Below, piece by piece: positions 811 to 45,720 of a stretch of DNA of 64,000 nucleotides. The DNA lies in the NCBI RefSeq assembly GCF_040267685.1, contig NZ_CP158367.1, positions 2,666,001-2,730,000 of the forward strand, written 5' to 3'. A program made the translations under genes and the position numbers. The notes beneath the pieces are model-generated. The model ran no database searches, was not told where the DNA came from, and saw nothing but the letters and a program-made list of their open reading frames with translations. The first letter of the stretch is position 1; each line of letters starts with the position of its first letter. The DNA comes from Proteinivorax tanatarense (lineage in GTDB: Bacteria; Bacillota; Proteinivoracia; Proteinivoracales; Proteinivoracaceae).

Positions 811-3507
811 TTAACCCAGTTTTTCTATATTAACACCTGTAACCTTCAAACTTGGAATACTAGCTTTAGCATCTAATAGTTCGGAGTTAGTTAACACGTT
901 TGCTCCATCTTTAAAGTGGAAAGGTACGCTAACTACTTTGTCAGAAACTAACTCTGTTATAAACGCTCTAGGTTTTATTTCACCTCTTGGTGAAGTTACC
1001 TTTACCACTTCTCCATTTTCTATCCCAAGCTTTTCTGCTGTGTTAGGACTGATTTCTACAAAGGTTTCATTGACAAGTTTGTTTACGCCCTCTGTTTTAC
1101 CAGTCATTGTCGAGGTGTGGTATTGATATAGGACACGGCCGCTGGTCATAATATAAGGATAATTACCTTTATCAGATAACTCCGGCGTTTCTTCAAATTC
1201 AACCGGCACTAGCAAGCCCTTACCCCTTGCTGGCTGGTTTGAGTGTAAGAATTTGGTACCTGGATGCTCTTCATTTGGACAAGGCCACTGAATTCCTTCA
1301 TCTTTAATGCGTTCGTATGTGATACCAGCATAAGATGGAGTTACAGCTCTTATTTCTTCGAATACCTCTTCTGCAGTTTCAAAGTTATTCTCATATCCTA
1401 AAGTTCTCATTAGTTCAACAAATATTTGCCAATCTGGTTTTGCTTCTCCAGGAGCGCTCACTGCTTTTCTTACCCTTTGGACTCTTCTTTCGGTATTAAC
1501 AAAAGTTCCATCTTTTTCTGCAAAGGCAGCAGCTGGTAAAACAACATCAGCAAGCTCTGCTGTCTCCGTTAAAAATATATCCTGTACAACTAAGAAACTT
1601 TCTTTTAGCCCCTTAATTACATGGTTTGTATCGGGATCGGATAACACAGGGTTTTCTCCCATAATGTAAAGCATTTTAATTTTTCCGCTTTCTGCATGTT
1701 TCATCATATGGGTCATGGTCATTCCATTTTCCCCAGATAGCTTTGTTCCCCAAGCCTTTTCAAACTTTTCCTGAGCTTTTTTATCGGCAACAGGCTGATA
1801 TCCAGTATAAACGATAGGTAAAGCACCCATATCACAGGCTCCCTGTACGTTGTTTTGACCCCTTAGCGGGTTAATTCCTGTTCCTTCTCTCCCCAAGTTG
1901 CCAGTAACCAAAGCTAGATTAGATAGACTGATAACACCGTCTGTTCCTTTATGATGTTGAGTTATTCCCATGCAGTACATAATACTTCCTCTATCGTATT
2001 TAGCGTACATTCTGGCAGCTTTTCGGATATCTTCTGCATCTACCTCACAGATCTCTGCTACCTTTTCTGGGGTGTATTTTTTCAATACTTCTTTCAACTG
2101 CTGGAAATCTTCAGTATTTTTCTCAATATACTCTTTGTCCTCTAGACCTTCCTCTAAAATCACATTTAGCATTCCATTTGATAATGCAATACTGGTACCT
2201 GGTTTAATTTGCAAAAATACATCAGATACATCCTCCAGTGAAATTTTGCGAGGATCAGCTACTATTAATTTGGCGCCTTTTTTAACGGCTCTTCTAATAC
2301 GCGCTCCAATAACAGGGTGATTTTCTTCTGTATTTGTACCTGTTAAGAATATAACTTCTGCCTTGTCTATTTCTTCGATACTATTTGTCATAGCTCCACT
2401 TCCAAGTGTAGTTGCAAGACCTGCAACTGTAGAGCTGTGTCAGAGTCGAGCACAGTGATCAACGTTGTTTGTACCGATACCTGCCCTAAAAAACTTAGTC
2501 ATCATATAATTATCTTCTGTTAAAGCTCTAGCGGAAGAAAATCCACCGATAGCATCGGGTCCATCTTGTTCTTTAATTTCAGTTATTTTATCCGCTATTT
2601 TTTGGTAAGCTTTCTCCCAAGTTGCTTCTATAAGCTCACCATTTTCTCTTACAAGTGGTTTGCTTAGTCTATCAGGGTGGTTAATAAAATCAAAAGCGAA
2701 CTTGCCTTTTACACAAAGTAAACCTTGATTCAACTTGCCTTTTACGGGATTGACCTCTACTATCTTGTCATCCTTAGTGGAAAGTTCTAGCTGACAACCA
2801 ACTCCACAGTACGAACAGGTAGTTTCAACTTTTTCTGTTTCCCAGTACCTATATTTATGCTTTGCTTTGGGCATCAATGCCCCTACTGGACAGTTTGAAA
2901 CACAGTTTCCACAGGATACACAATCTGTCTTGGTTAACTCTCTCTCAATGTTTTGGGGAGCTTTAACATACCCCTGTATTCCTTGTCTTACTAGAGATAA
3001 CCCTTCTACACCCTGTAACTGCGTGCAGATTTCTACACATTTTCCGCAGGCGATACATTTCTCTCTATCAATGTAGTAAAAAGGATTTTTGTCGAAAAGT
3101 TCCTTTGGAGCTATATTTTCTCTGAAATAGTCAGGGCCTTGAACATCGTATTTATAGCAATACGTTTGCAAATCACAATGCCCCGACTTTTCACAGGTTA
3201 AACAATCTAAAGGATGATCAGCTAAAATCTCTTTAAGAATCTCTTGTCTAGCTCTAACTACATTGTCCGATTCTGTCCAAATTTCCAAATTATCCTTTAC
3301 TATTACATCAGTAGAATCAACTAAACTCTCTTCTCCTTTTATTTCAACAATACTTAAGTCAGCCCCACTATCTACAGTTTTCATATCAAAGCGTTCGTCA
3401 TAATTTAAAGTTGGTATATTTATGTCGTTTAAGCGAGCTGCATTAAAAACACTTATTCCCTCTTCACATTGAACAGGTCGTCCGTTAATTTTAATCGTTA
3501 TCATCAT
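811..3507 (-). CDS. fdhF: Selenocysteine formate dehydrogenase, NuoG-like N-terminus
   Basis: Molybdenum/tungsten bis-MGD formate dehydrogenase catalytic subunit of about 898 residues, read through an in-frame UGA at 2440-2442 (residue 356) in the motif DHCARL-U-HSSTVAGL. The two open frames on either side of the UGA are one gene. Order of parts: a ferredoxin-like fold that has lost its [2Fe-2S] cysteines, a His-Cys3 [4Fe-4S] site (HPLDCLTC..GHCDLQ), two ferredoxin [4Fe-4S] motifs (CIACGKC, CVSCGNC), the FDH [4Fe-4S] (CSYCGVGC), then the MGD domains. I chose ATG 3507, which lies 5-6 nt after AGGGG; the GTG at 3513 lies in the ribosome site. It overlaps the end of hydA. Expected to be cytoplasmic and to form a complex with the hydrogenase encoded upstream. 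Confidence 0.95.
2410..2428 (-). promoter_or_regulatory. SECIS element of fdhF
   Basis: Eleven nt after the UGA the mRNA can form AGTTGCA-GGUCU-TGCAACT, a stem with the GGUCU apical loop also present in the E. coli fdhF SECIS that binds SelB. It supports reading the UGA as selenocysteine. Confidence 0.85.
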
Positions 3508-5260
3508 ATTCACCCCTTACATCAATATTTTTCTTTGAGCGATCAATATAGTGGGTATGAAGTAAATCATGAGCTTTATGTCCACCAGGCTGTCCTAAAT
3601 AATTATCATACAATTTGCTAATTAGAGGATTCTCATGAGAACGGCGCAAGATAGAGCTTCCGTCTGTTTTATAAATACCTGCCATTCTCTTTTTGACTGT
3701 TTCCATAGAATCTGGGATAGGAGCTCCTCCTCCGTTAATGCAACCTCCTACACATCCCATTATTTCAACAAAGTGGTATTTTTTTTCACCATTATCAATC
3801 TTTTTCATTAGCTCCTTTGCAGCAGCTGTACCATGGACAACAGCAATTTTAACCTTCATATCTGCTATTTTAATCTCTGCTTCTTTAGCATTTGTCAGTC
3901 CTCTTACACCTTCATACTCTATTTTGTCTAGTTCACCATCACTAAGTTTCCAAGCAACTGTTCTTAAAGCTGCTTCCATAACTCCACCTGTTGTACCAAA
4001 AATTCTTCCAGCACTAGTGTGATCTCCTAAAAAGTTGTCAAAACTTTCTTCGTCAAGCTTTGCAAACTGAATTTTTTCCATTTTTATCATTTTTGCTAGT
4101 TCTCTCGTTGTCAGTACCGCATCTACATCTTTTAGGCCGTTGACTTTTAGTTCTTCTCTATCTGCTTCGAATTTTTTAGCAGTACAAGGCATTATAGATA
4201 GGCTAAATATTTTTTGAGGATCTAAATCATTAATCTCTGCATAATAGGATTTAGACAAAGCACCGAACATTTGTTGTGGTGATTTACAAGAAGATACATT
4301 TTCCAATAAGTGGGGATAATTATGTTCTACATACTTTACCCAACCTGGAGAGCAAGATGTTAACAACGGAAGCTTTTCACCTTTTTGGACTCTGTCAATA
4401 AACTCAGTTCCCTCTTCCATTATTGTCAAGTCTGCTGTAAAATCGGTGCTAAATACTTTGTCTACACCTAGCTTCCTTAAGGCTGCGTTGGTTTGTCCTG
4501 TAACATCAGTGCCAGGCTCCAACCCAAACTCTTCACCCAAAGTGTGTTTAACAGCTGGTGCTGTTTGTACCACTACGTGTACATTAGGATCATTTATAGC
4601 TGTACGTACTCTTTTGATGTCATTTTTCTCTACTAACGCCCCTACAGGACATACTTTTATACATTGACCACAGTTTATACAATCGGTTTCTAAAATAGGT
4701 TCCTTTTCTTTAGTGTTAATGACTGTGTCATGTCCTCTTTCAGTATAATCATAAATGCCTATGTCCTGTGTTTCCGAACAAACTCTAACACAGTTTCCAC
4801 ATACTATACATTTATTTACATCTCTAGTAATCGAAGTACTTGATAAATCAAGGACTTCTTTTTGTGGCAAAGTCTCCAGCAATTGCTCTTTTCTATTAAC
4901 ATCATATTGATAACAAAGGTTTTGCAATTCACAATCGCCAGCAACTTTATCGCAAGTCAAGCAATCATTTGGGTGATTGGCAATTAAAAGTTCTAACGTC
5001 GCTTTTCTAGAATCTTTAATTTTCTCTGTTTCTGTGCGCACTATCATTTTATCTTTTACTTTAGTATTACAGGAAGCCAAAAGTTCCTCTTCTCCATCAA
5101 CCTCCACAACACACATCCTACAATTTCCCTCATTATTCAAATCGGGATGAGTACATAAAGTAGGGATGTTAACTCCATTTTTCTTACATACATCCAAAAT
5201 TGAATTATCTTCCGTAGCAACTACATTTTTATCGTTTATAGTTAATCCAACTGTTGCCAT
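3491..5260 (-). CDS. [FeFe]-hydrogenase catalytic subunit, M3 type
   Basis: About 589 residues. It has a plant-type [2Fe-2S] domain (Cys 36, 47, 50, 64), a His-Cys3 [4Fe-4S] (HPNDCLTC..GDCELQ), two ferredoxin clusters (CIVCGNC, CINCGQC), then the H-cluster domain with TSCSPGW, MPCTAKKFE and EIMGCVGGCINGGG, and a small-subunit-like tail ending near LYDNYLGQPGGHKAHDLL. Ser stands where C. pasteurianum hydrogenase I has the proton-relay Cys 299 (TSCCPGW). It catalyses reversible H2 oxidation/proton reduction. I chose ATG 5260, 7 nt after AAGGAGG, over the ATG at 5266 which abuts the ribosome site. It lies between the NuoF-like gene and fdhF, so the three products probably form one complex. Confidence 0.95.
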   Translation of the reverse strand: MATVGLTINDKNVVATEDNSILDVCKKNGVNIPTLCTHPDLNNEGNCRMCVVEVDGEEELLASCNTKVKDKMIVRTETEKIKDSRKATLELLIANHPNDCLTCDKVAGDCELQNLCYQYDVNRKEQLLETLPQKEVLDLSSTSITRDVNKCIVCGNCVRVCSETQDIGIYDYTERGHDTVINTKEKEPILETDCINCGQCIKVCPVGALVEKNDIKRVRTAINDPNVHVVVQTAPAVKHTLGEEFGLEPGTDVTGQTNAALRKLGVDKVFSTDFTADLTIMEEGTEFIDRVQKGEKLPLLTSCSPGWVKYVEHNYPHLLENVSSCKSPQQMFGALSKSYYAEINDLDPQKIFSLSIMPCTAKKFEADREELKVNGLKDVDAVLTTRELAKMIKMEKIQFAKLDEESFDNFLGDHTSAGRIFGTTGGVMEAALRTVAWKLSDGELDKIEYEGVRGLTNAKEAEIKIADMKVKIAVVHGTAAAKELMKKIDNGEKKYHFVEIMGCVGGCINGGGAPIPDSMETVKKRMAGIYKTDGSSILRRSHENPLISKLYDNYLGQPGGHKAHDLLHTHYIDRSKKNIDVRGEYDDND

Positions 5261-27719: not shown

Positions 27720-29612
27720 TTATTTTTTTTTACTACCTTCAATGGATATAATGTTCCCACAATCCTTTAAATTATACCCACCTAATTTATTTACTTCTTG
27801 TTTAAAACTAGTACTAGTGATGACACTGTGTAAAACCTTAAACCCTTCTGACTTATAGAACTCTTCGGTTATTAGTAAGTCATAGCTTTCTTCAAACACA
27901 GGTACGAAGTCTATTTCCATAGCCTTACTAGCTGCATAAATCCCCATACCAGCTTGTACACGACCACTTTTTACTTGAGCAGCCACGTCTAAGTGAGTAA
28001 AATATTCTTTATTATATCCAGATATTTCTTTTGGTGATATTCCATTCTGATATAAAAGGTAGTCAAGTAAAACTCTGGTCCCTGCACCTTTTTGTCTATT
28101 GGCAATGCTAATTTTGGTTAGATCTCCAATTTGCTTAATATTTAAAGGGTTTCCCTTTTGTACCATTATCCCCTGAGTTCTTTTCGCCAAGCTTAATAAA
28201 TATACTTTTTCATCAGAAATATATCTTTTTATATAAGGTATATTATATTTTCCGGATTCAGGATCTAAAAGATGTACACCAGCCATATGAGCTTGCCCTT
28301 TTTTGATTGCCATTATTCCTCCTAAACTTCCTACATGGGCAGAATTCAAGGAATATTTAGGAGTAACCCCTTTTGCTATTAAGTCAAGGCAAAGATCATG
28401 GCTTCCTACTGCCATAATAGTTTTTTCCAAATCTAATTGTTTAAAAAGTTCTATCTCTACATCTTCACCAGCTCTATGCCCTTCAGAGTTTGAAGGTACT
28501 GTAAGAAGTCCATCTCCATGGACGATAGTATTCATAAGAGCTGAACCTCTGCCTAATGGAGTAGCTACTACCTTCCCCTTAACTTTTCCCACCTTTACAC
28601 GAATGAATTCTTTATGTTTAAGGTCAGAAACTGCAGGCTTAGTTAATCTAGCTTTTAAGGTAATGCTGGGAACAGAGGTTATTTCCATTAAAGAATGATA
28701 AATTTCTTTTATAATTTTCTCCATAACTATAAATCCAGAAACAGGGTATCCCGGCACTCCAATAATAGGTTTATCAAACGCTTTTCCTAAAATTGTAGGC
28801 TTGCCAGGTTTGATTGCAACTCCATGATAATAAACCTCTCCTAAAGTATTGATAACTTCTGACGAGTAGTCATCTTTACCAGCTGATGAACCAGCATTTA
28901 GCAGCACCATATGACATTTTGCAGCTGCGTCTTTTACAGTTTCTTTTAAAGCTTTAAAGTCATCCTTTACAATTGGATAAACTACAGGGTTAGCTCCCCA
29001 TTTTTTCAAAAGAGCTGCAAATAAATGAGAATTGCTATCTACTATTTCACCTATTTGGGGGTTGTTTTTATGTGATACGATTTCATCCCCTGTGGGAATA
29101 ATAGCTACCTTTATCTCAGAAGTGACTAGCACTTTTTTAGTTCCACTTGCTACCATTACTGCCACGTCCATAGGTTCGATAGTCTTCCCTTTTGGCAAAA
29201 GCAGTTCATGGGCTACTATATCCTCACCGATAGGCCTTATATGTTGCCCTTTAAATGCAGCTCCTATAATTTCAATACCATCCTGCAATTTATTAACATC
29301 TTCTATTTTTATCACAGCATCAAAACCGTCTGGCACAGCATCCCCAGTGTCAACATAAACTGCCTGCTTATCAAATTTAAGCTCCACTGGCTTATCAACG
29401 TTTGCACCAACTGTTTCTTCAGCCTTTACAGCATATCCATCCATAGCAGAGCTAACATAATGGGGTACAGAGCGTGTCGCATACACATTATCAGCACAAA
29501 CTCTCCCTAACGAATCTTCTGGCTCAATTTTGTCAATTTCTATTAGCTTAGAAAACTCTTTTTTATAACTGTCAAGGCATTCTTCTAAAGGCGTATTTTT
29601 TAAATAAACCAT
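27720..29612 (-). CDS. MoeA-like molybdenum cofactor protein fused to a periplasmic-binding-protein-like domain
   Basis: 630 residues. Residues 1-400 are MoeA: SAMDGYAV, PTGDEI, GSSAGKDDY, PGYPVSG. Residues about 400-625 form a PBP-like domain (AVGSHDLCLDLIAK, GTRVLLDYLLYQNGI, VKSGRVQAGMGI) of the type that binds small anions. MoeA inserts Mo or W into molybdopterin; the extra domain may sense or select the metal, but that is inference. Its start abuts the stop of the second MoeA, so both are made together, near fdhD and the formate dehydrogenase that needs the cofactor. Confidence 0.93.
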   Translation of the reverse strand: MVYLKNTPLEECLDSYKKEFSKLIEIDKIEPEDSLGRVCADNVYATRSVPHYVSSAMDGYAVKAEETVGANVDKPVELKFDKQAVYVDTGDAVPDGFDAVIKIEDVNKLQDGIEIIGAAFKGQHIRPIGEDIVAHELLLPKGKTIEPMDVAVMVASGTKKVLVTSEIKVAIIPTGDEIVSHKNNPQIGEIVDSNSHLFAALLKKWGANPVVYPIVKDDFKALKETVKDAAAKCHMVLLNAGSSAGKDDYSSEVINTLGEVYYHGVAIKPGKPTILGKAFDKPIIGVPGYPVSGFIVMEKIIKEIYHSLMEITSVPSITLKARLTKPAVSDLKHKEFIRVKVGKVKGKVVATPLGRGSALMNTIVHGDGLLTVPSNSEGHRAGEDVEIELFKQLDLEKTIMAVGSHDLCLDLIAKGVTPKYSLNSAHVGSLGGIMAIKKGQAHMAGVHLLDPESGKYNIPYIKRYISDEKVYLLSLAKRTQGIMVQKGNPLNIKQIGDLTKISIANRQKGAGTRVLLDYLLYQNGISPKEISGYNKEYFTHLDVAAQVKSGRVQAGMGIYAASKAMEIDFVPVFEESYDLLITEEFYKSEGFKVLHSVITSTSFKQEVNKLGGYNLKDCGNIISIEGSKKK

Positions 29613-30829
29613 TATCCTCTCTCCTTTAAGTAAATTTTTACTTTTTCTCCCTTCGCTAGCCCTTCACTATGAATAGGAACAATTATATAGCCATCCATTT
29701 TTGTTAGCACACCAATCGAATTCGATTTTGCAAATAAAGGTTTAACTTCAATTTTATCTTTCACTTGGTTTACCTTTACAGGTACATAGTCCTGCCTTCC
29801 ACCTGCTGAAGGTATGTTTTGATTAAGGTACCCAATTAAAGTCTTTTCTTCTGTATAATTATTTAATAAAGGCCGGACAAACAGCTTAAAGCAAAGCATC
29901 GCCGACACAGGGTTTCCAGACAAGCCAAATACAGGTGTATTATCAATTTGTCCTATTATAGTCGGCTTTCCCGGTTTCAGCGCAATACCATGAATTAAAA
30001 CCCCAGGGGTTCCTATACTTTCTATAGCTTCTGCTACATAGTCCTTTTTCCCTACTGATGTGCCACCGGTTAACAGAACTATTTCGCATTCATTAACGGC
30101 CTTTTTTAAAGTAGATTTTACATCATTAAATTGATCTTTTACAATACCATAATACTCAGGAATTCCACCCCATAACTTACAAGCTGCCATTAGACCAGGT
30201 CCATTACTGTTTGGAATTTCACCTAAGCACCATTCTTCCCCTGTTTCCACAAGCTCATCACCAGTAGATATTATCCCCACCCTTACTGGTTTAACTATAG
30301 AGACTTTTGTTACACCTAATGAAGAAAGAAGGTTTATGCTCTCCGGCAGCACTTGATCTCCTTTATTCATAATAACCTCACCTTTTTTAATATCTTCACC
30401 TTTTATAATAACATTCTCACCTGATGCCACACTTTTATGTATTCCAACCTCATGGTCAGAAAAATTTTCCGTATACTCCACCATTACAACTGAATCTGCA
30501 TTTTTAGGCAACATTCCCCCGGTGGGAACTTCTACACAACTACCGGGCTTTAGTTCATTAGTTGGTGCAGTTCCCATTTCCAGCCGTTCTATAACCTCCA
30601 AAAGTGAGGGTAGAGATTCACTAGCACCTGATACATCTTCCCACCTGACAGCATATCCATCTACAGCAGACCTGTTAAATTGCGGCAGATCATATGGCGA
30701 GTAAATATCTTCGGCTAGAGTTTTCCCTACAGCATCCACGATATCAACAATTTGTTCCCCAGGATTCACTTTAAAAGAATTAATTACTTTATATACTTCT
30801 TCTACAGATTTTACATTTAAAAAAGCCAT
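29612..30829 (-). CDS. moeA: Molybdopterin molybdenumtransferase MoeA
   Basis: 405 residues with all MoeA motifs: RSAVDGYAV, PTGGMLP, STGDELVE, LTGGTSVGKKDY and SGNPVSA. It ligates molybdate (or tungstate) to adenylylated molybdopterin. First gene of a two-MoeA operon and one nt overlaps the next start. ATG 30829 follows AAAGGGAGTG. The 170-nt leader upstream is discussed separately. Confidence 0.95.
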   Translation of the reverse strand: MAFLNVKSVEEVYKVINSFKVNPGEQIVDIVDAVGKTLAEDIYSPYDLPQFNRSAVDGYAVRWEDVSGASESLPSLLEVIERLEMGTAPTNELKPGSCVEVPTGGMLPKNADSVVMVEYTENFSDHEVGIHKSVASGENVIIKGEDIKKGEVIMNKGDQVLPESINLLSSLGVTKVSIVKPVRVGIISTGDELVETGEEWCLGEIPNSNGPGLMAACKLWGGIPEYYGIVKDQFNDVKSTLKKAVNECEIVLLTGGTSVGKKDYVAEAIESIGTPGVLIHGIALKPGKPTIIGQIDNTPVFGLSGNPVSAMLCFKLFVRPLLNNYTEEKTLIGYLNQNIPSAGGRQDYVPVKVNQVKDKIEVKPLFAKSNSIGVLTKMDGYIIVPIHSEGLAKGEKVKIYLKERG

Positions 30830-31963: not shown

Positions 31964-32143
31964 CTATCCATCATTTTTTATTTCTTGCACATGATGATAA
32001 ACACCTATAGCATACAGTATAGCTACAACTGCTAAAAGAACCAGAAAAATGCTGTTACCCTCCCAAGTAATAACAGATCGGTAAATTAGAAGCACACCTG
32101 TTCCTATTAATAATAAAAAGGCTGGTAAATTTTTAGTCACCAT
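31964..32143 (-). CDS. 59-residue two-helix membrane protein
   Basis: A small frame starting at ATG 32143 with a very good ribosome site (AAGGAGGTGA) inside the end of fdhD, overlapping it by 11 nt. The product has two hydrophobic stretches (LPAFLLLIGTGVLLI, IFLVLLAVVAILYAIGVY) and ends HHVQEIKNDG. It stops 12 nt before the start of the split membrane pair, so the genes are translationally linked. Function unknown; a small subunit of that membrane complex is the simplest guess. Confidence 0.65.
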   Translation of the reverse strand: MVTKNLPAFLLLIGTGVLLIYRSVITWEGNSIFLVLLAVVAILYAIGVYHHVQEIKNDG

Positions 32144-32933
32144 AGGTCACCTCCTTTAGCCTGTAGTGGTGAGTATAACAATTAAGCTTTTTCCCTCTAA
32201 CAAACCCTATTAAGGTCAGTCCTCCCCGTTCCGCCAAGCTAATTGCCAGAGAACTGGGCGCCGATCTAGATACTAAAATGGGAATCTTTGCCTTAATTAC
32301 TTTAAGCACTATTTCTGAAGAAAGTCTCCCGCTAGAAAGCAATATCTTATCTTCCACGGCCATCTCATCAAGAAATGCCCTACCTAAAATCTTGTCTACA
32401 GCATTATGCCTCCCTATATCTTCTCTTGTGTAAAGCAGATTTTCTCCATCAGATAAACTTGCTGTGTGAACTCCACCAGTTTCTTTATATAATTGTGATA
32501 CTTTTTGGACTTGATGCATTTGTTCCATTATCTTTTGAGCTGAAACCTCAACATCTTTATTCAATTTATGCCCCTTGTTATTTAAAGAGTCCAACACGTT
32601 ATAAAATATAGTCCCTTTGCCACATCCTGTAGTAATGGTTCTCTTACCGTATAACTTCTTCTTTAATGGACTGTAATTAGGGATGCTCACTTCCACAACG
32701 CCGTTATCTTTGTCCAAATCTATAGCTTCAATCTCATCAACTTTAGAAATTAAGGATTCCGACAAAATAAACCCTATAACAAGCTCTTTTTGGTTATAGG
32801 GTGTAGAAAGTAATGTTATAAATTGGTCACCATTGATATAAATTGTTAAAGGAGTTTCCTCCACCACACAATCTTCCATACTTTTATACTCATTATTTAC
32901 AAACCTAACTATATCAACTTTTTTCTTAGCCAT
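32133..32933 (-). CDS. fdhD: Formate dehydrogenase accessory sulfurtransferase FdhD
   Basis: 266 residues. FdhD passes sulfur from a cysteine desulfurase to the bis-MGD cofactor of formate dehydrogenase. The active-site loop is TTGCGKGTIF, with one Cys where the E. coli protein has two (CGVC). Other motifs: FILSESLI, GGVHTASL, EDIGRHNAVDKILG and VSRSAPSSLA. Preceded by a TATAAT box about 40 nt upstream. Its end overlaps a small membrane-protein gene. Confidence 0.95.
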   Translation of the reverse strand: MAKKKVDIVRFVNNEYKSMEDCVVEETPLTIYINGDQFITLLSTPYNQKELVIGFILSESLISKVDEIEAIDLDKDNGVVEVSIPNYSPLKKKLYGKRTITTGCGKGTIFYNVLDSLNNKGHKLNKDVEVSAQKIMEQMHQVQKVSQLYKETGGVHTASLSDGENLLYTREDIGRHNAVDKILGRAFLDEMAVEDKILLSSGRLSSEIVLKVIKAKIPILVSRSAPSSLAISLAERGGLTLIGFVRGKKLNCYTHHYRLKEVTYGD

Positions 32934-33049: not shown

Positions 33050-33146
33050 TGGCGGGAGTGCATGGGAATCGAACCCACCATGGACATTACTCATGCCCAC
33101 TGTTGGATTTGAAGTCCAAAGAGCCCACCAGGACTCATCCACTCCC
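33050..33146 (-). tRNA. selC: tRNA-Sec (anticodon UCA)
   Basis: 97 nt. Acceptor GGGAGTG pairs with CACTCCC, discriminator G then encoded CCA. The anticodon loop ACTTCAAA gives UCA for UGA, there is a long variable arm (CAGTGGGCATGAGTAATGTCC region), and the T arm is GGTGGGTTCGATTCCCATG. The length and long arm are typical of tRNA-Sec. Confidence 0.95.
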
Positions 33147-33197: not shown

Positions 33198-34232
33198 TTA
33201 GATAATAGTTATGTTACCCTCACCTTTGGAGGTTATGCCGATAATACATCCATATACCCCATTTTTTTGAAGCTCATATACAATGTCATCGCTCTTTTCT
33301 TTAGAACAGGAGAACAATAGTCCACCAGAGGTTTGAGGATCAAATATAATATCTTGAATTTCTTGTGGCACCGTATTCTCAACAGAAACTCTATTAGAAA
33401 AATGCTCCTTGTTTCTATAGGCACCAGCTGGAATCAGTCCAAACTGGGCATACTCAAGTGCTTCCTCGATAATAGGGATATTGGTATTATTAATAGTTAT
33501 ATCTACCTTAGACCCCATCGCTATTTCGGCGCAATGACCTCCAAGACCAAACCCTGTTATATCAGTACAACACTTTATATCATACGAAGATAACACCTCT
33601 TTTGACTTTTTGTTCAATTGAGCCATAGTACTTACAGCTTTATTATAGGCTTGTTCACTGGCCATATCACCTTTTAAAGCAGTAGTTATAACCCCTGTTC
33701 CCAGCGGTTTTGTCAAAATAAGATGTTCATCAGGACTAGCAGCTGTATTTTTCCAAATACCATTTTCTGATACAAACCCAGTTACAGATAGGCCATATTT
33801 AGGTTCAGGATCTTCGATGCTATGCCCTCCTGCTAAAGTAACTCCAGCTTCCTTTAGCACTGAGCTCCCCCCTGCCAAAATTTGTGCTAAAGTCTTTTTA
33901 GGTAAACAACTCATAGGAAAACCTACTAGATTAAGAGCATATTTAGGATCTCCTCCCATAGCATATACATCACTTAGAGCATTAGCAGCGGTTATTTTCC
34001 CAAAGATAAAAGGATCATCCACCATAGGTGTAAAAAAATCAACAGTTTGTACCACCAGTTTGTTCTGTGGCACCCTAAATACAGCGGCATCGTCTCCGCT
34101 ATGGTAACCCACAATTAAATCATCATTATGTTCAAATTTAATATCATCTAGTATGTTTTGTAGATCCCCCGGACCTATTTTAGCCCCTCAGCCAGCAGCT
34201 TTAACCATCTGTGTCAACCTTACATCATCCAT
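33198..34232 (-). CDS. selD: Selenophosphate synthetase, itself a selenoprotein
   Basis: About 344 residues including Sec at position 15 (UGA 34188-34190) in KAAG-U-GAKIGPGDL, the catalytic Cys/Sec position of SelD. Makes selenophosphate from selenide and ATP. Downstream motifs include SGDDAAVF, DFFTPMVDDP, NALSDVYAMGG, AGGHSIEDPEP. A frame search starting after the UGA misses the first 40 residues; ATG 34232 overlaps the end of the LysR gene and follows GGGAGGTAACC. Placed between selC and selB. Confidence 0.95.
34161..34177 (-). promoter_or_regulatory. SECIS element of selD
   Basis: Ten nt past the UGA, TAGGTC-CGGGG-GATCTA can form a 6-bp stem (one G-U). It is a short SECIS-like hairpin in the right place. 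Confidence 0.6.
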
Positions 34233-35121
34233 TTTGGTTACCTCCCTTTGCCAAATAATTTAAAAAGAGTTTAAAAATATTAGAACCTGCATAGTCTCTT
34301 CTAAATATATAGAATAAATCCCTTTTAACTTCCATAGGACATTTGATAATCTTTATATCTCTAGAACTTTCTGCTCTTTTTGCAGCAACTTCAGAAATAA
34401 AAGCAACCCCTAAGTTAGCCTCAACAGCAGATATTATACCTTCAGTCCCATTCGATTCCATAACAACATTAAGGTCATTTATACCAAGATTAAAGTGGTT
34501 TCGTAAATTATCCAATAACACCTCTCTGGTTGCTGAACCTTTTTTTCTCAACACTAATGGAACTCTTTGTAAGTCTTTTGCATTTTTAAGATTATCAAAA
34601 GGAAACTCCGTGCTGGATATAGCTACAAAACTATCAGTCACCCATCTACAAGATGTTATCTCTTTTGATTTCACTCTTTTTCCCACAAAACCAATATCCA
34701 ACTCACCCATGCTAACTCCATCTATAACCCAATCGGAATCTCCCATTATTACACTTATGTCGCCTTTAGGTACATCTCTTTTAAATTTTTTCACAAAAGA
34801 TGGCAAAAAGTATTGACCTGGTATTGTGCTAGCACCTAACTTAAGTTTTCCAGAGACCTGTTCTTGATAATTACTTAACATACCTTCAGTATTCTCCCAT
34901 ATCTGAAGTATTTTCACAGATTCATTGTAAAGTATTTTTCCTGCATCTGTAAGATGCACCCGTTTACCTACTCGCAAAAATATCTCCACTCCTATTTCCC
35001 TAGATAAACTTTGCATTTGCATGCTAACCGCAGGTTGGGATAGGTGCAGTTTCTCAGATGCTTTGGAAAAATTTCCTTCGTCAACTACTGTAACAAACGT
35101 TTTTAAAGTAGTTAAGTTCAT
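34225..35121 (-). CDS. LysR-type regulator linked to selenium metabolism
   Basis: 298 residues: N-terminal winged HTH (NFSKASEKLHLSQPAVSMQMQ), then a two-lobed effector domain. It overlaps selB by 4 nt and selD by 8 nt, so it is made as part of the selA-selB-selD operon. LysR regulators in this position are known in selenium gene clusters of anaerobes. The effector and targets are not visible from sequence. Confidence 0.9.
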   Translation of the reverse strand: MNLTTLKTFVTVVDEGNFSKASEKLHLSQPAVSMQMQSLSREIGVEIFLRVGKRVHLTDAGKILYNESVKILQIWENTEGMLSNYQEQVSGKLKLGASTIPGQYFLPSFVKKFKRDVPKGDISVIMGDSDWVIDGVSMGELDIGFVGKRVKSKEITSCRWVTDSFVAISSTEFPFDNLKNAKDLQRVPLVLRKKGSATREVLLDNLRNHFNLGINDLNVVMESNGTEGIISAVEANLGVAFISEVAAKRAESSRDIKIIKCPMEVKRDLFYIFRRDYAGSNIFKLFLNYLAKGGNQNG

Positions 35122-37028
35122 AGGTTAATCTCCTTCCCTTTTGAACCTAATATCCTTAAATCTCCAACTCTTTTAGTTATTCCTTCTCCATCTAAATATT
35201 CTAAAATTGGAACAACATATTTCCTGGATGTATTGAATAAATCACGACATTGGGCCAAAGTAATTCCTTGTGGATTATCTTTAATAAGCTTTATCAGCTT
35301 TTTTACACCGTTAGACAATACTTCTTTGCTGATTACCATGTCATCACTTATCCTAACTATTCGATTCGATTGATATAAGTAATCCCACAGGTTTTTATCT
35401 AAAGGCAGTTCCTTTTTAGGAGGCGGTTGAAAGGCACCATTATCCAAAATTTCCATCACCATCTCAATATTTTGTCTCTGCTCTTCAGTAAGGGTTACTT
35501 CAAAGTCACAAAGCTTTACGAAAAGACCATCGGTTTTTATTTTCCCCCTATAAGTTAGAACTGAGAGCAAGTCTGAAAGTCTCTTGTTGGACAATTCTAT
35601 ATCAAGATTATGTTTTAATTCTTCTTTATTTACCCCCCACCTAAACGGGTTATTTTGATGATATTTCTGTAAAAAGTTAGCCATATTTTCAGAAAGTGTT
35701 TTTAGGTTTTTTTCACTTATGGCTACATATTCATCACTGTCAAGTAAAACAATATCCCCGCGCTTTCTTAAAGTTAATATACAACTTCGTATCTCATCAT
35801 TTGATTGCTGCAGTTCTTTGGAAAGTTCCTGTAGGGTTATTCCATAAACACCCTGTTCTTCAACAACCTGCTTTACAACCTCTAAAAGCGGCTTCTCATC
35901 TCTTATTTTTAGTCCATTTAAAGCTTTTTCATCATATCTTTTTATTCTTTTATTGGTAGCCCCTAAAACTTTACCTCCTCCAATTGTTGTTACAGGAGAC
36001 ATCGCTCTAATCACAAAAGGGTCATCTTTTGCCACAACTACCTTTTCCTTTAATCTTATTTGACAAAAAGAGCTTTCCCCCCCATTAATTTCTTCTTGAT
36101 CTAACAAAACTAACCTACCTATACTCTCTTGAGTTCCCACATGAAGCCTAACCATAGTTCCTGTTTTTACTTTACTGCAATTTTCCAAAAGGTTTAACTT
36201 GCAATTAACTTTGTTTTTAGGTGAAAAATAATTCTTAGTAGCTAGCATTGAACCTAGGCTTAACTGCTCCTTTTCAAGACCAGCTATATTAATAGCCACC
36301 CTTTGCCCTAAATAAGCCTCATGAACCGGAGCTTTGTGAACTTGGATTTGCCTTACCTTTCCATTAATTTCCCCTGGAAAGACTTCAACTGTGTCCCCCA
36401 CTTTCACTATCCCATCTTTTAAGGTTCCGGTAACCACTGTTCCTATACCTTTTAAACTAAAACTTCTATCTATAGGTAATCGAAAAAAATTCTTGGGCTC
36501 AGGTTTTTTTGCATTTTTCACCGTTTCGGTTATCAACAACTTTAAATCGTCAATTCCCTCCTGTGTATAGGTGGAAACCATTGCTACAGGAGCATCCTCT
36601 AAAAATGTGCCTGCAACTTCCTCCAATATATCATCTTTAGCTAATTCTAAAAGTTCATCATCAACTAAATCTTTTTTGGTTATCACAATAATCCCGTTTT
36701 CTACATGAAGAAGTCTTAGTATGTCTAAATGCTCTCTAGTTTGAGGCATAACCCCTTCGTCAGCAGCTACAACTAGCAGCACTACATCTAAGCCGCCCAC
36801 ACCTGCTAACATGTTTCTAACAAACCTTTCATGGCCTGGTACGTCCACAATTCCAGCCTTATCACCATTGGGCAACTCAAAATACGTGAATCCCAGTTGT
36901 ATTGTTATACCCCTACTCTGCTCTTCTTTAAGCCTATCAGTGTCCACACCGGTTAAACTTTTTATTAAACTTGTTTTGCCATGATCAACATGGCCAGATG
37001 TACCAATAACTATATGTTTATTCTCCAT
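35118..37028 (-). CDS. selB: Selenocysteine-specific elongation factor
   Basis: 636 residues. EF-Tu-like GTPase: GHVDHGKTSL, DVPGHERF, TKKDL; beta-barrel domains; then winged-helix repeats in the C-terminal third (GITLQELSKEL, NPQGITLAQCRDLFNTSRKYV) that bind the SECIS hairpin. It brings Sec-tRNA to UGA codons such as those in fdhF, selD and the MerT-like gene in this window. Overlaps selA by 11 nt. Confidence 0.97.
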   Translation of the reverse strand: MENKHIVIGTSGHVDHGKTSLIKSLTGVDTDRLKEEQSRGITIQLGFTYFELPNGDKAGIVDVPGHERFVRNMLAGVGGLDVVLLVVAADEGVMPQTREHLDILRLLHVENGIIVITKKDLVDDELLELAKDDILEEVAGTFLEDAPVAMVSTYTQEGIDDLKLLITETVKNAKKPEPKNFFRLPIDRSFSLKGIGTVVTGTLKDGIVKVGDTVEVFPGEINGKVRQIQVHKAPVHEAYLGQRVAINIAGLEKEQLSLGSMLATKNYFSPKNKVNCKLNLLENCSKVKTGTMVRLHVGTQESIGRLVLLDQEEINGGESSFCQIRLKEKVVVAKDDPFVIRAMSPVTTIGGGKVLGATNKRIKRYDEKALNGLKIRDEKPLLEVVKQVVEEQGVYGITLQELSKELQQSNDEIRSCILTLRKRGDIVLLDSDEYVAISEKNLKTLSENMANFLQKYHQNNPFRWGVNKEELKHNLDIELSNKRLSDLLSVLTYRGKIKTDGLFVKLCDFEVTLTEEQRQNIEMVMEILDNGAFQPPPKKELPLDKNLWDYLYQSNRIVRISDDMVISKEVLSNGVKKLIKLIKDNPQGITLAQCRDLFNTSRKYVVPILEYLDGEGITKRVGDLRILGSKGKEINL

Positions 37029-38385
37029 CTATAATCTCCTCCCCTAAAAGCCCGCACACTTTAGATAAATATGGGATGTCTTCTTCATAAACTGTCTTTA
37101 AATCTAAATAAAGTGTCTCATTTCGTATCCTACCCACAATTGGCACCTGTTGTTTTCTAAGAAACTCAGCAATTAGCTGAGGCTTGTGATAGTTTATTTT
37201 TATTGCAACTGTTTTTAGTTGATGTAATGGCATCGCTCCCCCGCCGATGAATGAGGCATCTTCAACAACTTCATAATATTTAGAATCAAGTGTTGCTGTA
37301 ATCTCACTGGCAATATCTTTAAGTTTATCTATTTCTCTATCTAAAAAATAATAAAAGGGAATCTCTTCTACATATCTCTCTTTTAGATAAATATCCAATG
37401 TACTTTCCAAAGCTGACAAAACCAACTTATCGCAACGTAGAGCCCGCATTAAAGGATGTTTTTTCAACTTTGTTATTAACTCCTTTTTTCCTAGCACAAT
37501 TCCACATTGTGGGCCACCAAGAAGTTTATCACCACTTAAAGTAACTACATCTGCTCCCTGTTGAATAGAGTCAATTACAGTAGGTTCATATAGTCCCCAA
37601 CGTTCAAGACTTATTAACGTTCCGCTTCCTAAATCGTCAATCAGGGGTAATCCACTATTTTTCGCTAATTGCGAAAGATCAGCTAAAGATGTTTCGTGAT
37701 TAAACCCCACCACTCTAAAGTTGCTGGGATGAACACGCATAATAGCACCTGTATTTTCATTAACAGCATGTTTATAATCGTCTATATATGCTTTATTAGT
37801 AGTTCCTACCTCTTTTAAAATAGATCCACTTTGCTCCATTACTTCTGGTATTCTAAATGAACCTCCAATTTCAACTAACTGTCCTCTAGACAGAATCACT
37901 TCCTTGCCCGATGTCAAAGCACTTAGAGTAAGTAACACCGCAGCAGCATTATTATTCACAACAACGCAATCTTCAGCTCCAGTAAGCTGCCTAAACTTTT
38001 CTTCAATAGAAGCTGTCCTTTTCCCCCTCTTTCCAGTAGTTAAATCAAACTCTATGTTACAGTAAGGGGTGGATAATTTTTTCACTTTGTCAGCCACAAC
38101 TTTGGGCAACGGTGCCCGCCCAAGATTAGTGTGAAGTATAGTGCCTGTTAAGTTAATAACTTTTTGTAACCCCTTTCGTTCACTATCCTCTAGCGAACTT
38201 TTTATAAGCTGAAGCACAAGATTTTCGCTAATATTTTCGTGATAGTTGGCAAAATCTTTTCTTATTTGCTCAAGAACTATTTTTGAGGTATCCAAAAAAG
38301 GGTCTCGCCCAAACTTAGAAACTAACTTAACACCTTTTTCATTTTTTAATAAATTTGTTACACTTGGTATTTTACTATAGTCCAT
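37018..38385 (-). CDS. selA: L-seryl-tRNA(Sec) selenium transferase
   Basis: 455 residues, PLP enzyme that turns Ser-tRNA-Sec into Sec-tRNA. Motifs: NLTGTILHTNLGRAPLP, VVNNNAAAVLL, PLP lysine in LSGDKLLGGPQCG. I chose ATG 38385 after AAGGAGGAAA; the longer frame to 38481 overlaps the upstream permease. Confidence 0.97.
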   Translation of the reverse strand: MDYSKIPSVTNLLKNEKGVKLVSKFGRDPFLDTSKIVLEQIRKDFANYHENISENLVLQLIKSSLEDSERKGLQKVINLTGTILHTNLGRAPLPKVVADKVKKLSTPYCNIEFDLTTGKRGKRTASIEEKFRQLTGAEDCVVVNNNAAAVLLTLSALTSGKEVILSRGQLVEIGGSFRIPEVMEQSGSILKEVGTTNKAYIDDYKHAVNENTGAIMRVHPSNFRVVGFNHETSLADLSQLAKNSGLPLIDDLGSGTLISLERWGLYEPTVIDSIQQGADVVTLSGDKLLGGPQCGIVLGKKELITKLKKHPLMRALRCDKLVLSALESTLDIYLKERYVEEIPFYYFLDREIDKLKDIASEITATLDSKYYEVVEDASFIGGGAMPLHQLKTVAIKINYHKPQLIAEFLRKQQVPIVGRIRNETLYLDLKTVYEEDIPYLSKVCGLLGEEIIDGE

Positions 38386-38402
38386 TATCTTTTCCTCCTT
38401 AA

Positions 38403-39641
38403 TTAAGGCATCATATAAGGCATAATATAAATTATAATTACCGTCACAATAGTCATAGCCAAACCTGGCTGGATAAACCACTTATAAAATTCAAAAAAAT
38501 CAAAGTCAAAATAATCTTTAGTAAGCACTAAGCAAAGATGAATCGGCGATAGCACATAAGCCCAAAGAGAAGTCATAAACATCAACAAAACATAAGGCAA
38601 TGGATTATATGCGATTGCTGAAGCAAAAATTGGTATAGTTATTCCCAACGCCGCTGAGTTAGAACCTGTTACCAAACCGCTAATTCCAGAAGCTAGCACA
38701 ACTAATAGAGTCAAAGGCAGCCCTAAGCTCTGAAGTTCTAGCATTAAATCCTCCACCACTGAGCTGGCTTCTAAAATTTCCTTAAAAAAGAAAATACCAA
38801 ATATAGTAATAGCTAAAGTATAGTTAATGCCTGGCAGAATGTCTTTTTTAATTTTTTTAACTGGTTTTTGCCAACTGTGTAAATTATCTTTTGCATCTAT
38901 GAGCAGTACCCAAATAACTGCAATAAATATAGCAATCGGAAATAATAATGAAAAACCTAACGATAGTATTAAAGCCAAAAGTATGGGAGATATACTTAAT
39001 ATAAATTTTCCAAAAACTTTACTCTTACTCTCACTTTTATCATTATTTTTAATTGGTGTAATACCTTTAAACATTGTCAAAAAGGATACCAATACACCAC
39101 TTAAAACAATGGGAAAACTAACTAAAATGATATGTTTAATTTCTACATCGGTCATAGCGGCTACCAACAAAAATGGAGGGTATAAAGGATAGATAGGAAA
39201 CCACATATGTCTAAAAAATATATTTATAGCTCCCATCTGACATTTTTTCAAACCCAACCTTTCTCCAGATTCACCCACCATAGGTGCGGAAAGGGCAGCC
39301 CCACCAGGGACAGTTAGCAGCCCTATCAGACTAGGAATGGAGGCCATCAACAACTTTGTTCCCCCTAGTAATGAAATCAAAGAAGAAATCATAGTATCCA
39401 AAAAACCTACCTGTTTCATAACAAAGCCTAATAACGATATCATCAAAACAACTAATGCAAGCTCAATAAACTCTGGTGTAACAAACACTCCTATAAAAAT
39501 ATTTAATCCTTCTTTATATGATATTCCGCTGGTAGCAGTTACAATAACTGCTCCTAAAATCATTGCTAAGCCAATATTAACTTTTTTTCTACTTAATGCA
39601 ACAACTAGAATTAAACTAACTATTACACCTAATATACCCAC
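38403..39641 (-). CDS. DUF401-like integral membrane permease, first gene of the selenium operon
   Basis: About 412 residues and about ten membrane helices; SLIGLLTVPGGAALSAPMV and RHMWFPIYPLYPP resemble the DUF401 family of ion-transporter-like permeases. GTG 39641 is preceded by GGAGAGG and lies downstream of the TATAAT box at 39681-39686; the longer frame to 39710 would start before the transcript. Being first in the operon with selA-selB-lysR-selD, it is a candidate transporter for a selenium compound, which is inference. Confidence 0.75.
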   Translation of the reverse strand: MGILGVIVSLILVVALSRKKVNIGLAMILGAVIVTATSGISYKEGLNIFIGVFVTPEFIELALVVLMISLLGFVMKQVGFLDTMISSLISLLGGTKLLMASIPSLIGLLTVPGGAALSAPMVGESGERLGLKKCQMGAINIFFRHMWFPIYPLYPPFLLVAAMTDVEIKHIILVSFPIVLSGVLVSFLTMFKGITPIKNNDKSESKSKVFGKFILSISPILLALILSLGFSLLFPIAIFIAVIWVLLIDAKDNLHSWQKPVKKIKKDILPGINYTLAITIFGIFFFKEILEASSVVEDLMLELQSLGLPLTLLVVLASGISGLVTGSNSAALGITIPIFASAIAYNPLPYVLLMFMTSLWAYVLSPIHLCLVLTKDYFDFDFFEFYKWFIQPGLAMTIVTVIIIYIMPYMMP

Positions 39642-44693: not shown

Positions 44694-45398
44694 TTATACT
44701 ACAACCTCAACTTCATTGCTCAACTCTATAGTGTTTCCGATGTTGCAGATATAAGCATGTATTGATACTTCTTCGTTGTAAGCTTCTGTTAAAGCTTTGC
44801 TAAACAATGGGTCTGTTTTTAAGTTAGGTGAAAAGCTTTTGGCGTCATTACGTTGTATCATAAACAGGACTTTTGCCTTATATCCTTCTTTTATACTTTG
44901 TGTTAATTCTTGTAGATGCCTTGTACCCCGAGATGTTGGTGCATCAGGGAATTTAGCTATGCCATTTTCAACTAAAGTAACCGATTTAACTTCTATAAGA
45001 GTCTTTTCCCCTGTTTCTTCTTCGACCAAAAAGTCCATCCTACTTTTCCCATAGGTATATTCACGTCTAATATTTGTTAGTTGATCAAAGCCAGGCATTT
45101 TGTTTTCTGTAAGCAGGTTTTCCACAAACCTATTTGGCATTTGGGAATCCAGCGAAACCCTTACCCCATCAACAGTATCAACCTGCAAAAGATCAAACTT
45201 TGTTTTTCTATTGTCCGCCCGTTCAGCCTTGCGAACATACACAGTTGCATCTGGTAATAAAAGCTCTTTTAATCTTCCCGAGGTAGGAAGATGGCAGGTC
45301 AGTATCTCACCGTTATAAAGTACATCACAGCTAAACCTATTGTTACGTTTGACAAAGGCAGCTTTTAACAGCTGCCCTTTTATTTTTAAACTACCCAT
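44694..45398 (-). CDS. sfsA: SfsA family DNA-binding/nuclease-like protein
   Basis: 234 residues, full length. Typical motifs: FVKRNNRFSCDV, CHLPTSGRLKELL, EVKSVTLVENGIAKFPDAPTSRG, which places the acidic residues of a nuclease-like fold. Its cellular role is poorly defined. It begins directly after the stop of the MerT-like selenoprotein gene (no gap), so the two form an operon. Confidence 0.93.
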   Translation of the reverse strand: MGSLKIKGQLLKAAFVKRNNRFSCDVLYNGEILTCHLPTSGRLKELLLPDATVYVRKAERADNRKTKFDLLQVDTVDGVRVSLDSQMPNRFVENLLTENKMPGFDQLTNIRREYTYGKSRMDFLVEEETGEKTLIEVKSVTLVENGIAKFPDAPTSRGTRHLQELTQSIKEGYKAKVLFMIQRNDAKSFSPNLKTDPLFSKALTEAYNEEVSIHAYICNIGNTIELSNEVEVVV

Positions 45399-45704
45399 TT
45401 ACAGCAACCTCTCTATGACAAAGTAGATCGTAGGTGATATCATTAAGGTAATTGATACAACAGCTAACACCAGCACAAAGTTCTGTAATTTTTTGTTGTT
45501 TTGTTTTTCGGCCCTTGTGTAAGCATAGTAAAGCATACCTGCTGAAAGCAGAACAAAAAACGGCCTATAAGGTGCTATACTGGACACAAACGATAGTGTT
45601 ACTCCACTGAGACCCAGGGAGATAATTATTACTGGTCCTAGTCAACATAACATGGCAAAAAAAGATGGTATCAAGGATAATATCGCTGATATTTTTTCTT
45701 TCAT
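45399..45704 (-). CDS. MerT-like membrane transporter with selenocysteine (Cys-Sec pair)
   Basis: 101 residues read from ATG 45704 (after AAAGGAGG) through an in-frame UGA at 45642-45644 (residue 21). The first helix reads FFAMLC-U-LGPVIIISLG, and the loop and second helix LSFVSSIAPYRPFFVLLSAGMLYYAY. MerT, the mercuric-ion membrane transporter, has the matching CC-x-GP..LG..G and EPYRP patterns, with the vicinal Cys pair binding Hg(II). Here the second Cys is Sec. Three helices in total. A SECIS hairpin with the GGUCU loop follows the UGA. The shorter ORF at 45399-45587 is only the part after the stop. No merA or merP is seen nearby. Confidence 0.85.
45602..45621 (-). promoter_or_regulatory. 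SECIS element of the MerT-like gene
   Basis: Twenty nt after the UGA, CTCCCTG-GGTCT-CAGTGGAG folds into a 7-bp stem with one bulged U and the GGUCU apical loop, the SelB-binding features shared with the fdhF SECIS in this window. Confidence 0.8.
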
Positions 45705-45720
45705 TAAATTGCCTCCTTTT

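Follow-up and report, generated by a model that had tools for sequence, protein, structure and literature searches.

A predicted selenoprotein of the MerT family encoded next to sfsA in Proteinivorax tanatarense

The gene at 45399..45704 and the selenocysteine genes of the window

On the minus strand of the window, by which we mean the whole stretch of 64,000 nucleotides that was analysed, an ATG at 45704-45702 begins a frame of 101 codons in which the only UGA is codon 21 (45642..45644), directly preceded by the UGU of Cys20 (45645-45647). The frame closes with a TAA at 45401-45399, which the ATG of sfsA at 45398 adjoins without a gap (sfsA, 44694..45398, minus strand, PF03749/TIGR00230), and a Shine-Dalgarno sequence, GGAGG (45712..45716, minus strand, read from the sequence), lies 7 nt 5' of the start codon; G-rich sites of this kind also precede the starts of most homologues. 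Translation with TGA read as U, the PF02411 match and the homologues that conserve the TGA together delimit the gene (45399..45704, minus strand, TAA included), whose product of 101 residues reads MKEKISAILSLIPSFFAMLCULGPVIIISLGLSGVTLSFVSSIAPYRP...ERLL. A sequence-only reading of this DNA had proposed here an unannotated selenoprotein resembling a MerT metal transporter; its coordinates for an ATG with a strong ribosome site, a UGA at codon 21 and a frame running to sfsA are correct, the strand being minus, and the residues that it singled out around the UGA (MLC-U-LGP...SLGLSG...APYRP) are seen in the 101-residue translation. The plus strand of 45399-45704 was considered and discarded, as it has many stops and no open frame.

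The same reading held that the full selenocysteine machinery is in the window, and all four components were found on the minus strand: tRNA-Sec (33054..33146; RF01852, 76.5 bits), selD (33198..34259; TIGR00476, 349 bits), selB for the Sec-specific elongation factor (35118..37028; TIGR00475, 364 bits) and selA for Sec synthase (37018..38481; TIGR00474, 535 bits). The selD frame, which was read from the sequence, has an in-frame UGA of its own (AAGUGAK), and the open reading frame listed for it covers only the part after this codon (33198-34112); with this UGA near its start, in VKAAGUGAK, SelD itself is probably a selenoprotein. Elsewhere in the window, a 901-codon frame at 811-3516 (minus strand) with one UGA, in NVDHCARLUHSST, looks like the alpha subunit of a selenocysteine formate dehydrogenase, and genes for FdhD (32133-32933) and MoeA (29612-30829) are also present.

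Conservation of the UGA and covariation of the hairpin that follows it

A protein search of 61 related genomes returned 10 further homologues in 9 genomes, each with exactly one TGA, and all ten hold that TGA at the codon-21 column, which is more than chance would give. When the search was made with a profile against 398 genomes of the phylum, 34 matches were obtained in 27 genomes, 31 with TGA at the codon-21 column and three with Cys (G068, G372, G216c), so that every homologue presents either Sec or Cys at the residue that the sequence-only reading had asked to be compared. Because this profile had been built from Sec members, the survey was redone with Pfam's own MerT model, which gave 26 matches, 24 of them with TGA. 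The window protein alone as query found no named relative in the genome contigs. tRNA-Sec scored above the Rfam cut-off in all 25 genomes that hold a UGA-form MerT; it also did so in two genomes with only the Cys form and in one relative without the gene, so that this agreement tests consistency but does not set genomes with the UGA form apart from the others.

The codons beyond the UGA, when compared with those of a homologue from the same genus, comprise 35 that are identical, 28 that differ synonymously and 18 that differ non-synonymously, with 15, 8 and 36 differences at the first, second and third codon positions, respectively. Because these differences fall mostly on third positions, the frame 3' of the UGA is, on this comparative evidence, a working reading frame with no sign of decay. 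Such a pattern bears on one objection to a selenoprotein, namely that the UGA is a true stop and that what precedes sfsA is either a decayed MerT gene or a leader of 20 residues. The TGA does interrupt the frame, and undecodable UGA copies can exist, given that five hosts of a mobile mer operon (described below) have no tRNA-Sec above cut-off; against this stand the conserved frame after the UGA, the UGA in the same column of 31 homologues reaching down to about 26% identity, the covariation of the hairpin described next, the full machinery in the genome, and the failure to find any of the additional lesions that a decayed gene might be expected to carry and that the earlier reading had named as a check. 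We consider a true stop very improbable, and reject the decayed gene on the conservation of the UGA, the covariation and the third-position bias.

The sequence-only reading had also placed a hairpin with a bulged U and a GGUCU loop 20 nt past the UGA, and we locate this element at 45602..45621 (minus strand), within the coding region: it is a bacterial SECIS-type hairpin of 4+3 pairs, CUCC-CUG-[GGUCU]-CAG-U-GGAG, with the bulged U at 45606, the loop at 45610-45614 and a predicted folding energy of -8.0 kcal/mol. In the homologues, its innermost pair forms between the third position of a Leu codon and that of the codon two further on (CTx GGT CTy AGT), both being synonymous sites in most of them, and among 29 homologues it occurs as C-G in 10, A-U in 6, G-C in 4, U-A in 4 and G-U in 1, and is unpaired in 4. 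In a test of all 1278 column pairs within the 57 nt that start at the UGA, this pair had the top covariation (1.01, the next being 0.70). The six-pair register without the bulge has 88.5% paired cells, as against 34-60% in slid registers, and the mean folding energy of the 29 homologues is -9.6 kcal/mol versus -5.6 (SD 0.44) for synonymous recodings of the same peptides; the hairpin of the window has the bulged form, for which the fraction of its own synonymous recodings that are equally stable is 0.027, and in several relatives the stem forms without a bulge. The fold, the covariation and the stability relative to recodings support a SECIS-type hairpin in this region; the Rfam models gave no SECIS match in the window at the gathering threshold.

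Taken together, the conserved UGA, a SECIS hairpin whose synonymous positions covary, and the presence of the Sec machinery strongly support the proposal that this is a real and intact selenoprotein gene, as the sequence-only reading had claimed. Decoding of the UGA as an amino acid other than Sec, for instance Trp or Cys through near-cognate readthrough, has against it a GGUCU-loop hairpin with a covarying stem just past the UGA, the occurrence of tRNA-Sec in every UGA-form genome and the Cys found in this column of the non-UGA homologues; we regard it as the least probable of the alternatives.

MerT family membership, cysteine position and gene neighbourhood

The window protein matches PF02411 (MerT) with 43.4 bits, above the gathering cut-off of 32.9, while its matches to the stricter NCBIfam MerT models, NF045683 among them, stay below their cut-offs. 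A tblastn search of plasmids with a lax threshold (E<=10) hit 4117 records, and among the matches listed those with an annotation are MerT; the top match is a MerT encoded by a plasmid of Cytobacillus firmus (E=2e-10, 38.5% identity over 88% of the query), and proteobacterial merT genes on plasmids are also matched. When the protein is aligned with proteobacterial MerT encoded in merR-merT-merP operons, the UGA takes the column of the second residue in their CC pair. The Pfam match, the tblastn match and this alignment agree with the earlier assignment of a MerT-like protein with its UGA at the second of two vicinal Cys. The Cys pair in the first helix of MerT is needed for Hg(II) transport, and the route ascribed to Hg(II) leads from MerP by way of Cys24/Cys25 and next Cys76/Cys82 to MerA (PMC5715351). 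The Tn21/Tn501-type MerT (NF010314, for which the window protein scores 43 of the 150 bits needed) shares with the window protein the LGP..LG.SG and PYRP motifs and, tentatively, three predicted helices, its CC aligning with CU; it differs in having Cys where the window protein has Sec, and in the cytoplasmic loop between helices 2 and 3 with Cys76/Cys82, which the window protein lacks, so that in the alignment Cys20-Sec21 is its only thiol/selenol. As this loop is also absent from the MerT of the C. firmus mer operon, its lack does not exclude mercury, nor does the loop define the wider family. A single-sequence structural model of moderate confidence (pLDDT 71) places helices at 2-32, 37-67 and 71-100, with C20-U21 in the first; a fold search of the PDB with this model gave no significant match, and neither did a PDB sequence search, in which the best match was MerF (E=0.26).

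Sec-MerT is not a new kind of protein, having been predicted since 2007, and the window protein adds a member to it. Two reviews (PMC13188914, PMC9312934) credit the prediction to Zhang and Gladyshev 2007 and describe, under PF02411, a selenoprotein family with the motif C/SxxU that is named 'putative mercuric transport protein' (ABB16073.1); Sec forms of the mercuric transport protein and of MerP are also listed in the GOS survey of 2008 (PMC2398784). The window protein shares PF02411 and one Sec with the ABB16073.1 family but has the vicinal arrangement MLCU, in which position -3 is neither Cys nor Ser, in place of the published C/SxxU. It likewise resembles NF045683, a MerT/CopZ fusion-like heavy metal transport selenoprotein, in its MerT-like N-terminal part, but the latter is a fusion of 235 residues; the window protein has no second domain and reaches 30.6 of 375 bits with this model. 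In the literature that we searched, mainly later reviews, we found neither CU without C/S at -3, nor the class split by rhodanese that follows, nor the wobble covariation, and for none of them do we claim priority; an experimental test of any Sec-MerT was not found there either.

Each of the 31 Sec-MerT proteins has one Sec and a Cys either at -1 (CU, 16 of 31, including the window protein with MLCU) or at -3 (CxxU, 15 of 31). A lipoprotein with a rhodanese domain (PF00581) is encoded directly downstream of all 15 CxxU genes and of none of the 16 CU genes (examples of the former are L035 after 1818, L038, L049 and L051), and most of these rhodaneses carry an active-site Cys loop, e.g. CATGSRS, which suggests sulfur (sulfane sulfur) or selenium as the ligand of the CxxU class. 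In two CU members, G050 and G381, a rhodanese frame lies some 4-5 kb upstream, and both stand beside CxxU rows in the tree, which did not yield a strict CU/CxxU split (2 changes for CxxU, 4 for CU); given that sequences from the same genus are not independent and that the tree, made from short proteins, is weak in its forks, Cys position and rhodanese neighbour are in strong association and not a proven division into clades. The recognisable neighbours of CU genes are ArsR/MerR regulators, CopZ-like zinc/2Fe-2S proteins, MerP-like UxxC lipoproteins and, once, a MerB with a UGA of its own. In the latter genome (G100; L092, 1-3400) the order is ArsR, ferredoxin-like protein, MerT (CU), MerP (UxxC), MerB, an ABC permease nearest to SaoP, and a CopZ-like protein, with in-frame UGA codons in four genes, MerT (CU), MerP (UxxC), MerB (CTU) and CopZ-like (UC); this cluster is possibly a Sec-rich organomercury operon.

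Plasmids of C. firmus and of E. faecalis ATCC 29212 carry a CU Sec-MerT with the same hairpin, as do ten genome contigs from Aerococcus, Marinilactibacillus, Ruoffia, Cytobacillus, Alkalibacterium, Aquibacillus, Geomicrobium, Alkalihalophilus and Halalkalibacter; on both annotated plasmids the order is merR-merF-merT-merP-merA, and on these as well as in 9 of the 10 contigs the frame that follows Sec-MerT is a MerP that itself contains a UGA (FTUxxC). The two plasmid proteins (WP_250634606.1, WP_252100557.1) are like the window protein in their length of about 100 aa, in Sec at the same residue, in the vicinal Cys-Sec and in the position of the SECIS, and RefSeq already reads through the UGA of the C. 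firmus gene (300-base CDS); they differ in lying between merF and a Sec-MerP gene, with merR and merA in the operon, whereas the window gene has no mer neighbours. From these operons with Sec-MerT, Sec-MerP and MerA, we infer that the vicinal Cys-Sec form is tied to mercury. The FTUxxC MerP-like lipoprotein (L101:4304-4630, L102:4298-4624, L105-L110, L112-L114) is stopped by RefSeq at its UGA as a 156-base 'hypothetical protein', which is probably a missed Sec-MerP. tRNA-Sec was found above cut-off in 4 of the 9 searchable hosts of the mobile mer operon and not in the other 5, mostly drafts; the latter belong to Aerococcus, Marinilactibacillus, Ruoffia, Alkalibacterium and Geomicrobium (L105, L107, L108, L110, L112), and their UGA-bearing mer genes are near-identical. 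In such hosts the mobile UGA-bearing genes may be unreadable, with MerF perhaps doing the work.

Proposed function and significance

We think it probable that the window gene encodes a selenoprotein of the MerT family that uses its C-U pair to bring Hg(II), or a soft metal like it, into the cell. Ribosomes would insert Sec at the UGA of codon 21 by means of the SelA, SelB, SelD and tRNA-Sec of the window, guided, as the comparative evidence suggests, by the hairpin at 45621-45602. The product would be a membrane protein of three helices in which Cys20-Sec21, in helix 1, takes the place that Cys24-Cys25 has in the aligned MerT; this pair would accept a soft ligand, most likely Hg(II) or a similar soft metal, and pass it inward, and, since the protein lacks the Cys76/Cys82 pair and there is no recognisable MerA, the ligand would probably be handed to small cytoplasmic thiols and not to a mercuric reductase.

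The case for mercury comes from CU relatives that sit in mer operons, and several observations on the window gene itself speak against it. It is flanked by sfsA and by the divergently oriented gene of an ABC-type ATPase, and sfsA is downstream in all four genomes of the family that have the gene (G000-G003); merR, merP and merA are absent from its flanks, no HMA protein with a TGA was found in the genome, and the best MerA score in the genome, 374 bits, falls short of the cut-off of 454, for which reason the substrate is only inferred. Import of Hg(II) without a reductase being harmful by itself, a MerT-family selenoprotein with another ligand, be it a sulfur or selenium species, or with a role as a membrane redox protein, is a serious rival, and the lack of a MerA, MerP or MerR partner, the fixed position beside sfsA in four genomes, unlike mobile mer operons, and the constant rhodanese lipoprotein of the sister CxxU class all argue for it. 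The window protein, however, belongs to the CU class, and the genes that could be identified beside other CU members concern mercury or soft metals; we hold this alternative to be clearly the less likely of the two. A broader picture, which we advance only tentatively, is that of a two-class family of Sec-dependent carriers in which CU proteins would handle soft metals with their vicinal Cys-Sec pair and CxxU proteins, fed by a surface-anchored rhodanese, would relay sulfane sulfur or selenium, not mercury, across the membrane, the CU protein of the window's family having left the mer pathway for a house-keeping role beside sfsA.

To a family so far known from predictions alone, these results contribute one well-supported selenoprotein. 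They also give strong comparative evidence for it, namely a SECIS base pair that takes all four Watson-Crick combinations while lying at synonymous sites. The match between the position of the Cys and the rhodanese neighbour, in turn, leads to a testable division of ligands within the family, between metal on the one hand and sulfur or selenium on the other.
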